NCBI RefSeq assembly: GCF_018139565.1
Contig: NZ_JAGSPK010000002.1
Coordinates: forward strand, 62,001 to 126,000
Direction: 5' to 3'
Origin: Cognatundibacterium rivi
Lineage (GTDB): Bacteria; Pseudomonadota; Gammaproteobacteria; Burkholderiales; Burkholderiaceae_D
DNA length: 64,000 nt
The notes beneath the pieces were generated by a model. The model ran no database searches. It had not been told where the DNA came from and was given only the letters and a program-made list of their open reading frames with translations. Both the position numbers and the translations under genes were made by a program. This document shows, piece after piece, positions 11,684 through 13,813 of this stretch; the stretch's first letter is position 1, and each line of letters opens with the position of its first letter.

Positions 11684-11710
11684 TAAAGTTTTTTCTGATG
11701 CTGCCGTTAA
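11684..11710 (+). promoter_or_regulatory. Sigma-28 (FliA) promoter P1 upstream of flhDC
   Basis: -35 TAAAGTTT (11684-11691), 11-bp spacer, -10 GCCGTTAA (11703-11710). The enterobacterial FliA consensus is TAAAGTTT-N11-GCCGATAA, so this site differs at one of 16 positions. It points towards flhD, with a predicted start near 11718. Confidence 0.75.
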
Positions 11711-11754
11711 GAAATTAACCGGAAAATATTTTTAAATTTATTTTCTAATTACCC

Positions 11755-11781
11755 TAAAGTTTTAAAAAATGCTGCCGTTAA
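11755..11781 (+). promoter_or_regulatory. Sigma-28 (FliA) promoter P2 upstream of flhDC
   Basis: -35 TAAAGTTT (11755-11762), 11-bp spacer, -10 GCCGTTAA (11774-11781): the same 15/16 match as P1, exactly 71 bp downstream. The spacers differ except for the last five bases, so only the sigma-contact elements are fully conserved. Predicted start near 11789. Confidence 0.75.
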
Positions 11782-11786
11782 TGGTA

Positions 11787-11813
11787 TTAAGTCCAATTGA
11801 TATTGGGTATTAA
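11787..11813. repeat. Imperfect inverted repeat at the predicted start of the P2 transcript
   Basis: Core CCAAT (11793-11797), loop TGAT, ATTGG (11802-11806), flanked by TTAA on both sides (11787-11790 and 11810-11813). It could form a 5' stem-loop in a P2 transcript or serve as an operator. Confidence 0.45.
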
Positions 11814-11911
11814 TATATCTAAGTATTTGATTTTTATAGAATTTTAATTTTTGAGCTTACTTTAGCTTTCTTGAAATAAAAAAATAAAAAATCAGCGTAC
11901 ATTCAAAAATA

Positions 11912-11940
11912 AAGCTTGTAAGAATTTGTCTTACAAGCTT
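11912..11940. terminator. Perfect 12-bp hairpin, possible bidirectional terminator
   Basis: Arms AAGCTTGTAAGA (11912-11923) and its exact complement (11929-11940) around the 5-nt loop ATTTG. The plus strand continues GTTCTGTTTTTCC, an interrupted T-run. The minus strand continues into TATTTTTG. It could end an RNA started at the FliA promoters, or act as a processing or binding site in the flhDC leader. Confidence 0.5.
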
Positions 11941-12061
11941 GTTCTGTTTTTCCTTCATCTAAATACCTGTTTTTTCCTATACACCCGGATTTTGTGGTCA
12001 CTCACAATGTATCTCAACGGCAAGATACTTCGCCTTTGAACATGTATTGGAGGGTAGGAAA

Positions 12062-12379
12062 ATGACACAGAACGACATGATGGCTGAAATACGTGATGCA
12101 AACTTGAGTTACTTAATGCTTGCTCAGCAAATGATTCGTGCTGATAAGGCAACTGCCATTTTTCGCCTCGGAATAGGTAAGGAAATTGCTGACTTAATTG
12201 AGGGTTTGAATAATTCACAAATCCTCAAGCTGGCTGGCTCCAATATGATGCTGGCAAGATTTCGTTTTGAAGACAGCTCGATTCTTTGCATGCTTACTAA
12301 CTACAATAAAGAGCGTTCTCTTGCTCATTCTCACGCAGCGATTTTAATGGCAGGACAACCTGTTGAAGAAATTCATTAA
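12062..12379 (+). CDS. flhD: Flagellar transcriptional activator subunit FlhD
   Basis: 105 residues from the ATG at 12062, preceded by GGAGGG at 12049-12054; an upstream TTG in frame at 12047 falls inside that ribosome site and is rejected. The sequence fits FlhD throughout (NLSYLMLAQQMIRADKATA, FRLGI, LAHSHAAILMA). FlhD4C2 activates class II flagellar promoters with sigma-70 RNA polymerase. flhC follows after 43 bp. In the Burkholderiales FlhDC sits above the che, mot and fli genes, in keeping with the genes that follow here. Confidence 0.95.
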   Translation: MTQNDMMAEIRDANLSYLMLAQQMIRADKATAIFRLGIGKEIADLIEGLNNSQILKLAGSNMMLARFRFEDSSILCMLTNYNKERSLAHSHAAILMAGQPVEEIH

Positions 12380-12422: not shown

Positions 12423-12977
12423 ATGGCTAGCAAAAGTGTTTTGAATGAAGCGTCAGAGATTCAATTGGCGATAGATTTAGTGAATCTTGGTGCTCGCTTG
12501 CAATTGTTGGAGTCTGAAACATCACTCTCACGCGAGAGGCTCTTGAAAATTTATAAAGAGCTGAAAGGTGTGTCTCCCCCTAAAGGAATGCTTCCATTTT
12601 CAACGGATTGGTTTACGACCTGGCAACCAAACATCCACTCATCGCTATTTATGAATATCTATAAATACTTGAATGAGCATGCTGAAGTTTCTGGTATCGA
12701 AGCAGTTGTTAAGTCTTATCGGCTTTATCTTGAGCAGGTTGGTTGTGTATCGCCTGATGAAGCGGTGCTGTCTTTGACGAGAGCGTGGACTTTGGTTCGG
12801 TTTTTCGAAGGGAAAATGCTAACATTTGCAAAATGTTCTGAATGCGGCGGTCATTTTGTTGCACATTCATTGGATTTGAATAATCATTATAAGTGTGGGC
12901 TTTGCCACGTGCCTTCCCGCGCAGGTAAAACTAAAAAAACGAGAGAGGCTGACATTCCTTTGGCGATGGTGGCTTAA
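12423..12977 (+). CDS. flhC: Flagellar transcriptional activator subunit FlhC
   Basis: 184 residues, full length. The C-terminal zinc site is visible as two CxxC pairs (CSEC near residue 138 and CGLC near 159). Motifs RLQLLESETSLSRERLLKIY and LTRAWTLVRFFEGKML are typical. FlhC carries the main DNA-binding surface of the FlhD4C2 complex. The ATG at 12423 is preceded by GAGAGG, so the start is well supported. Confidence 0.96.
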   Translation: MASKSVLNEASEIQLAIDLVNLGARLQLLESETSLSRERLLKIYKELKGVSPPKGMLPFSTDWFTTWQPNIHSSLFMNIYKYLNEHAEVSGIEAVVKSYRLYLEQVGCVSPDEAVLSLTRAWTLVRFFEGKMLTFAKCSECGGHFVAHSLDLNNHYKCGLCHVPSRAGKTKKTREADIPLAMVA

Positions 12978-13000: not shown

Positions 13001-13813
13001 TTGGAGGCATTGCGTGTTAGTCACAAAAGCCTTAGTCCTTCAAGCGTTCAGGCCAAATATCCCTTATTAAAGGCTCTACTGGTTCAGGTTTTATCATTTG
13101 TCGTTTGTTTTGCTTTTGCTGTCATTGCCAAAAAATTTTACGGATACGTATTTATTCCGTTCACATTTCTTCTCCTTCTTTTATTTCATTCATTTCTATC
13201 TCTCCTAATTTCACTTCTGCTTAAATCTGAGTGGTGGTGGAATGTTATTGCATTCATCTTTCCCATTTTTGTCTCCCTTGGTTTGTATTTGCAGATTTCG
13301 TCCGCGCTTAGCTTGGTTATATTTCTTTTTCTTTTTTTTGTCTTCGGTACCACTCTCACTACAAGGGTGCCATATTTCCCCTCTCATTCGTCGTTGTCGG
13401 AACGGCTTTTAGAATTTTTCTCTGATAAAGAAAAGTTGCAGCTACTTGATGCGGGAAGTGGTTTGGGTGGCTTGATTATCGATTTGTCTAAAGCCAGACC
13501 GGATTGGAAGTTAACTGGTGTTGAAATTTCCTCATTTCCCTGGTTGTTTAGTTTTCTAAGGTCAAAAATCTTACGTCGTCAAAACGTCAAATTTCAACTT
13601 GGGAGTTACGAATATTTAAATTTTGAAAAATTTGATGTTGTTTTTGCTTATTTGTCGCCAGTAGTGATGTCAGAAATTTGGAAAAAGGTGCAATATGAAA
13701 TGGTGCCTGGAAGTATTTTTATGAGTTACGAATTTCCTGTTGATGGTGAGCCTCCTAGTTTCGAAATTCAAGTGAGTGAAAAAGGGGCGATATTGTATGT
13801 GTGGCAAATGTGA
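13001..13813 (+). CDS. Membrane-anchored class I SAM-dependent methyltransferase
   Basis: 270 residues. The N-terminal third is strongly hydrophobic, with three to four membrane helices between about residues 20 and 118. A Rossmann-type methyltransferase core follows: motif I LLDAGSGLGG (about residues 146-155), an acidic residue after strand 2 (TGVEIS), and a motif IV-like segment FDVVFAYLSPV. Initiation is probably at the TTG at 13001, since AGGAG lies 5 nt upstream and no better ATG exists. It sits inside the flhC-motA interval, so a link to motility or its regulation is plausible. Substrate unknown; no flagellin-methylase signature is visible. Confidence 0.75.
   Translation: MEALRVSHKSLSPSSVQAKYPLLKALLVQVLSFVVCFAFAVIAKKFYGYVFIPFTFLLLLLFHSFLSLLISLLLKSEWWWNVIAFIFPIFVSLGLYLQISSALSLVIFLFLFFVFGTTLTTRVPYFPSHSSLSERLLEFFSDKEKLQLLDAGSGLGGLIIDLSKARPDWKLTGVEISSFPWLFSFLRSKILRRQNVKFQLGSYEYLNFEKFDVVFAYLSPVVMSEIWKKVQYEMVPGSIFMSYEFPVDGEPPSFEIQVSEKGAILYVWQM

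Follow-up and report, generated by a model that had tools for sequence, protein, structure and literature searches.

In the textbook flagellar cascade, FlhDC turns on FliA and not the other way round. In the 64,000-nucleotide stretch of Cognatundibacterium rivi DNA analysed here (the window), the two strongest FliA-type (sigma-28) sites of 142.7 kb of sequence stand ahead of the master operon flhDC itself. The question is what FliA-type sites could be doing at the top of the cascade. The original prediction left two answers open, namely positive feedback onto the master operon or a separate FliA-dependent RNA. The features that bear on this question are collected in Table 1.

Table 1. Features of the flhDC upstream region and neighbouring genes (positions in the window)
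Feature	Position	Strand	Basis or remark
DnaQ-like gene	ends 11536		upstream of the sites; 525-bp gap, then flhD
FliA-type (sigma-28) promoter site 1, TAAAGTTT-N11-GCCGTTAA	11684–11710	+	exact match; 27.5 bits; position kept in Undibacterium
AT-rich stretch before site 2, UP-element-like (AAAATATTTTT...)	11723–11745	+	AT content and motif
FliA-type promoter site 2, TAAAGTTT-N11-GCCGTTAA	11755–11781	+	exact match; 27.5 bits; conserved in family
Predicted RNA from site 1, ~235 nt	shares 3' end of site-2 RNA	+	predicted ends
Predicted RNA from site 2, ~165 nt	11788–11952	+	predicted ends
Conserved stretch TAAGTATTTGATTT	11820–11833	+	alignment of 26 Undibacterium-like loci
Hairpin, 12 pairs (4 G-C), loop of 5	11912–11940	+	folding; arms covary between loci
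Dyad TGTAAGA-N5-TCTTACA inside hairpin	11917–11935		only perfect match in genome
T-rich tract after hairpin (GTTCTGTTTTT)	11941–11951	+	terminator-like together with hairpin
Block AAATACC ... CCTATACA	11961–11983	+	conserved in alignments
Block CACAATGTATCTCAACGGCAA before flhD	12003–12023	+	conserved in alignments
flhD	12062–12379	+	Pfam PF05247, 147.6 bits; start ATG 12062
flhC	12423–12977	+	Pfam PF05280, 297.2 bits

The two sites lie in tandem on the + strand with their starts 71 bp apart and are oriented toward flhD with no gene in between, as the original prediction described. They are the only matches to the 27-mer pattern in the window, and 100 dinucleotide shuffles of the sequence contained no match. 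The E. coli FliA consensus is TAAAGTTT-N11-GCCGATAA with an 11-bp spacing. Each site agrees with it at 15 of 16 positions, the single deviation being a T for an A in the -10 element, and T is the usual base at this position in the conserved sites of relatives (150/183). Transcription would be predicted to start at about 11717 from site 1 and at about 11788 from site 2. In the family loci, the 28 nt preceding the -35 elements are 80% AT, as against 58% for the upstream regions overall, and a stretch resembling AAAWWTWTTT (at least 9/10 matching) precedes 148 of 183 sites. This AT-rich stretch resembles a UP element. The FlhD encoded downstream is identical to that of U. aquatile, and the genome is treated here as an Undibacterium genome. 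Between flhC and motA, at 13001–13813, lies a gene for a 270-aa protein whose methyltransferase matches are weak and fall under Pfam cut-offs in every case.

We then placed the two sites among other candidate FliA sites. Exact matches in the 3.92-Mb genome, allowing A or T at the variable -10 position, number three: the two flhDC sites and one located 71 nt before flgM. Matches with up to three mismatches fell below the control level (36 and 30 versus 63 and 72) and were therefore left unused. We trained a matrix on 126 sites taken from non-Undibacterium loci and ran it over 142.7 kb, made up of the window and four other stretches, the fliC and flgM–fliA regions included. Each flhDC site scored 27.5 bits, followed by flgM with 25.4 bits, flgK (named by eye from the sequence) with 18.7 bits and the next match with 11.1 bits, so that the flhDC pair is the joint top of the scanned sequence and stands above flgM. 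With 11.1 bits as the next best score, nothing else in the window stands out from noise by this matrix, and the mot and che genes have no equivalent of the 27.5-bit sites, in agreement with the earlier claim. The genome encodes FliA (279.7 bits, over the cut-off) and FlgM (53.9 bits). The locus thus has, by sequence, -35 and -10 elements of sigma-28 type with 11-bp spacing in a genome that carries both FliA and its anti-sigma factor. The organism's own fliC (locus L249) has only a degenerate sigma-28 site, with four mismatches and a 10-bp spacing, about 115 bp before the ATG. In this it differs from flgM and flgK, which have good sites.

The search upstream of flhD in relatives that had been proposed as a check was run on successive sets of loci. 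In the first set, the best 80 of at least 220 relatives, every locus (80/80) had at least one match with up to three mismatches and a spacing of 10–12 bp within 900 bp upstream. A further 70 family loci were picked from 222 genomes with flhD, one of which (L145) came without upstream sequence because the wrong side was taken. The count was made on 128 distinct family loci with an FlhD identity of at least 60% and at least 550 bp upstream, which excludes 15 diverged family loci (L173–L187). A site was present in 53 of the 128 loci at up to one mismatch, in 109 at up to two and in 119 at up to three; 76 loci had two or more sites at up to two mismatches. At up to two mismatches, first-order Markov controls averaged 0.1 loci (maximum of 1 over 20 runs), and a single locus had a match on the opposite strand. 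Of 80 distances between consecutive sites, 77 fall within 65–114 bp, and the median distance from the start of the last site to flhD is 320 bp. The elements are thus conserved in relatives. That they are chance matches or dead is hardly credible against 109 of 128 loci where 0.1 would be expected, and on one strand. Sites at up to three mismatches are absent from L120, L138, L146, L147, L148, L156, L158, L167 and L168. The 15 excluded diverged loci have none at up to two mismatches, and most of them have none at three. Outside the family, where 20 of 33 matching genomes were used, 8 of the 20 loci have a site with up to two mismatches within 650 bp. Some relatives, for example L050 and L129–L131, carry three FliA-type sites in series ahead of flhD.

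The relatives also bear on the origin of the pair. The original prediction had argued from differing spacers that the two sites reflect selection and not a recent duplication. The spacers differ less than it claimed: the two 27-mers differ only in their five central bases and share the other 22, namely 9 bp at the 5' end and 13 bp at the 3' end. However, relatives keep both positions with differing spacers, so the pair is old, a conclusion that the window alone would not give. Both positions are conserved across the genus, which rules out a recent duplication. Conservation strongly supports the interpretation of the sites as FliA-type promoters ahead of flhDC that have been kept by selection.

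Three further elements are conserved in the alignments. The first is a dyad core, GTARGACAAANTCCTAC, which lies some 145 bp ahead of the ATG; closer to flhD come the blocks AAATAC...CCTATT and CAGAATGTATCTCACTGGCAA, in this order. With the core of each locus defined as the best match inside a fixed range, all 125 family loci carry G at core positions 1 and 5 and T at position 2, and the dyad is also recognisable in most loci outside the family. In the form TGTARGA-N5-TCYTACA it is found about 110–190 bp before flhD across much of the order, with or without FliA sites, and is thus independent of them. The dyad is probably an operator of flhDC; its shape recalls RcsB or GacA boxes, which makes a regulator of the NarL/FixJ type a candidate for binding it. 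The block at 11961–11983 is probably a proximal flhDC promoter or regulator site, and the conserved proximal elements together suggest a separate promoter for flhDC between the hairpin and flhD. In E. coli, the FlhDC box consists of half sites AAATANCG and CGNTATTT about 10 bp apart. The proximal block is like these half sites in letters and unlike them in spacing, since 12 bp separate AAATA and TATTT (read by eye). An E. coli-type box at this block was rejected because the spacing is off and a genome scan came out near its control (41 versus 33).

The dyad lies inside a larger hairpin. The segment 11905–11952 folds at -16 kcal/mol (z -6.12), and the arms around the dyad vary between genera with complementarity retained. 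As an alignment-free test of arm pairing we swapped flanks between loci (200 swaps), using for this and for the outer-stem, T-tract, upstream-hairpin and G.T analyses the 67 of 125 loci left after thinning at 75% likeness. For loci with FliA sites (n=58), the native mean was -15.40 kcal/mol, compared with -10.05 (sd 0.35) when the 5' flank was swapped and -11.78 (sd 0.31; lowest of 200, -12.60) when the 3' flank was swapped. The effect was present both in Undibacterium (n=16; -14.79 native versus -10.90 and -10.98 for the 5' and 3' swaps) and in the other loci with sites (n=42; -15.63 versus -10.44 and -12.32). L068, which by its coordinates belongs to the same genus as the window, was counted with these other loci. 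Loci without sites (n=26) gave -10.41 native versus -9.80 and -9.72, and the native value was reached or undercut by 20 and 10 of the 200 swaps, respectively. For this set, outside loci needed a core score of at least 13 and L216, with a site at -643, was classed as lacking sites. L065, which has a 12-bp spacing, was excluded from the 26 loci; it was counted as lacking sites in the family flank swap and as having them in the other four analyses. The arms thus covary where FliA sites exist and hardly where they are absent, a comparison in which lineage and site presence are partly confounded because the two groups differ in lineage too. Four diverged loci with sites outside the family gave no clear arm signal (-13.35 versus -11.26 and -13.54).

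Counting pairs in the outer stem with a fixed arm window, we found 6/6 pairs in 18 of 43 non-Undibacterium loci with sites, where swapped flanks gave a mean of 4.0 and a largest value of 11. Outer-stem pairing was not in excess in the eight family loci that lack sites. The Undibacterium count was 2 of 16 against a swapped mean of 1.5, the fixed arm range being unsuited to this genus because its arms adjoin the core. The covarying arms in the flank swaps led us to reject the hairpin as a DNA palindrome alone. In stems defined by Watson–Crick pairs alone (56/59 loci), mismatches favoured G.T over A.C by 22 to 5, where base composition predicts a G.T share of 59% (p 0.018). This bias modestly favours a + strand RNA.

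Alternatively, the hairpin could be unrelated to the FliA sites, either as a regulator's DNA palindrome or as a terminator serving the dnaQ-like gene upstream. The dyad does occur without FliA sites as well. However, the arms beyond the dyad covary only where such sites exist, the hairpin lies 376 bp after dnaQ and no more than 32 of the 110 loci tested yielded a DnaQ-like gene, so that we consider this explanation very improbable. By the same count, we rejected an assignment of the sites or the hairpin to the dnaQ-like gene. FliA sites occur without it, in the sequence examined, in examples from Massilia, Duganella, Pseudoduganella, Rugamonas and Janthinobacterium (L070, L072, L080, L103 and L112); with upstream genes differing across genera in this way, the arrangement goes with flhDC.

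We next considered the sequence that follows the hairpin. T makes up 59% of it in Undibacterium and A 8%, where the background has 34% and 31%. The values are 33% T and 11% A (background 29% and 23%) for other loci with FliA sites and 22% T and 15% A (background 30% and 22%) for loci without them. The hairpin with its T tract therefore resembles an intrinsic terminator in Undibacterium, whereas the picture in other loci is ambiguous, termination being doubtful where the tract is as weak as 33% T. In the window itself, the stem has only four G-C pairs and the T tract is interrupted. An additional hairpin upstream is more stable than its shuffles in Undibacterium (mean z -1.71 for 16 loci), with no clear effect in 43 other loci with sites (-0.69) or in 8 loci without (-0.87). 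In the window this hairpin is not clear.

These observations bear on the two outcomes that the original prediction had left open. Because the hairpin and the T-rich tract stand between the sites and the conserved proximal flhDC elements, the separate FliA-dependent RNA is favoured, as it is by the covariation of the hairpin arms. Under direct positive feedback, FliA polymerase would read through the hairpin into flhDC and boost it after basal-body completion. The orientation of the sites toward flhD with nothing coding in the way would suit this, as would the want of a clear T tract outside Undibacterium, but the terminator-like hairpin of Undibacterium and the putative proximal promoter downstream speak against it, and we regard read-through as unlikely, though less so in genera whose hairpin is followed by no clear T tract.

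With moderate confidence, we propose instead that the tandem sigma-28 sites drive structured RNAs of about 235 and 165 nt that feed back on the cascade and end before the proximal flhDC elements. FliA would drive transcription toward flhDC from the two conserved promoters, and in Undibacterium most of this transcription would end at the hairpin and T-rich tract (11912–11951). The products would be stable, structured non-coding RNAs. Because FliA acts after hook-basal body completion, such an RNA would signal to the master operon that assembly has reached a late stage. It could do so as a trans-acting small RNA, or in cis if its transcription runs over the flhDC operator. A further alternative makes the RNA a by-product, with FliA-driven transcription over the dyad and proximal promoter displacing regulators or polymerase and so lowering flhDC late. 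The hairpin overlies a dyad that is conserved order-wide and kept also without FliA sites, and competition of FliA and sigma-70 promoters has been proposed for E. coli fliL (PMC4183435). Such interference, however, does not require selection on paired arms, and we judge it improbable.

For the favoured RNA, two features of a sigma-28-dependent small RNA were found: a FliA promoter of its own, by sequence, and conserved RNA structure, by the flank swaps. The predicted RNA from 11789 to 11952 folds at -35.6 kcal/mol (z -4.15), and 1 of 200 shuffles folded as well. A known Rfam RNA was rejected, as no family fits: Rfam 15 gave six matches for the window stretch, all far under gathering scores, and only a tRNA among 13 loci. 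In a crude duplex scan that took no account of accessibility, no flagellar target stood out among 175 (flhC ranked 14th, fliC 26th, flgM 83rd and flhD 169th). The predicted Undibacterium RNA contains a conserved stretch resembling TAAGT-NN-TTG-N-TTT at 11820–11833. The motif AACTTAGG, near the ribosome site in 11 of 16 fliC upstream regions, could pair with it, a match made by eye and without statistical support.

A FliA promoter may also precede flhDC in Yersinia, but the literature examined, including passages of PMC3017118 and PMC4563271, contained no confirmation of this. FliA acts after basal-body assembly, and in Salmonella the cascade feeds back onto the master operon, for example through RflM, as proposed here; the loops described in that part of the source are protein regulators and not sigma-28 promoters before flhDC (PMC4563271). 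The E. coli RNAs UhpU, MotR, FliX and FlgO are likewise sigma-28-dependent and feed back on flagellar genes, UhpU acting on LrhA, a flhDC regulator; as far as the consulted part of the paper goes, they are derived from UTRs and located elsewhere, whereas the unit predicted here is intergenic, with tandem promoters directly ahead of flhDC (PMC10578931). Non-coding RNAs tied to the flagellar cascade are also described, in the portions available, for Campylobacter (PMC4626219, PMC11187230), where sigma-28 dependence is reported (PMC4626219); we set them beside the present case by description only. Class 2 operons of E. coli such as fliL have dual FlhDC/FliA promoters and so place FliA sites outside the late class, but the part of PMC4183435 covered names flhDC as the only class 1 unit and describes no FliA promoter upstream of it. 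Four flagellar terms that were looked for are absent from PMC4603805. Among the sources searched, mostly outside subscription journals and in part available as extracts, we found no report of FliA promoters ahead of flhDC in the family. Sigma-28-dependent small RNAs are thus already known from E. coli and Campylobacter, and their placement ahead of flhDC was not found described, which is weak evidence of novelty because most subscription papers fell outside the search.

The prediction that follows from the arrangement is an inbuilt feedback of the cascade's last tier on its first, together with a candidate RNA in Oxalobacteraceae. More tentatively, many Burkholderiales may possess an undescribed family of sigma-28-dependent RNAs with one to three promoters ahead of flhDC and a 3' hairpin over an ancient operator, which would couple basal-body completion to a reset of the master switch; we offer this as a possibility on the doubtful side. 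The relatives that have no FliA sites provide a natural comparison for how the hairpin arose over the older operator.
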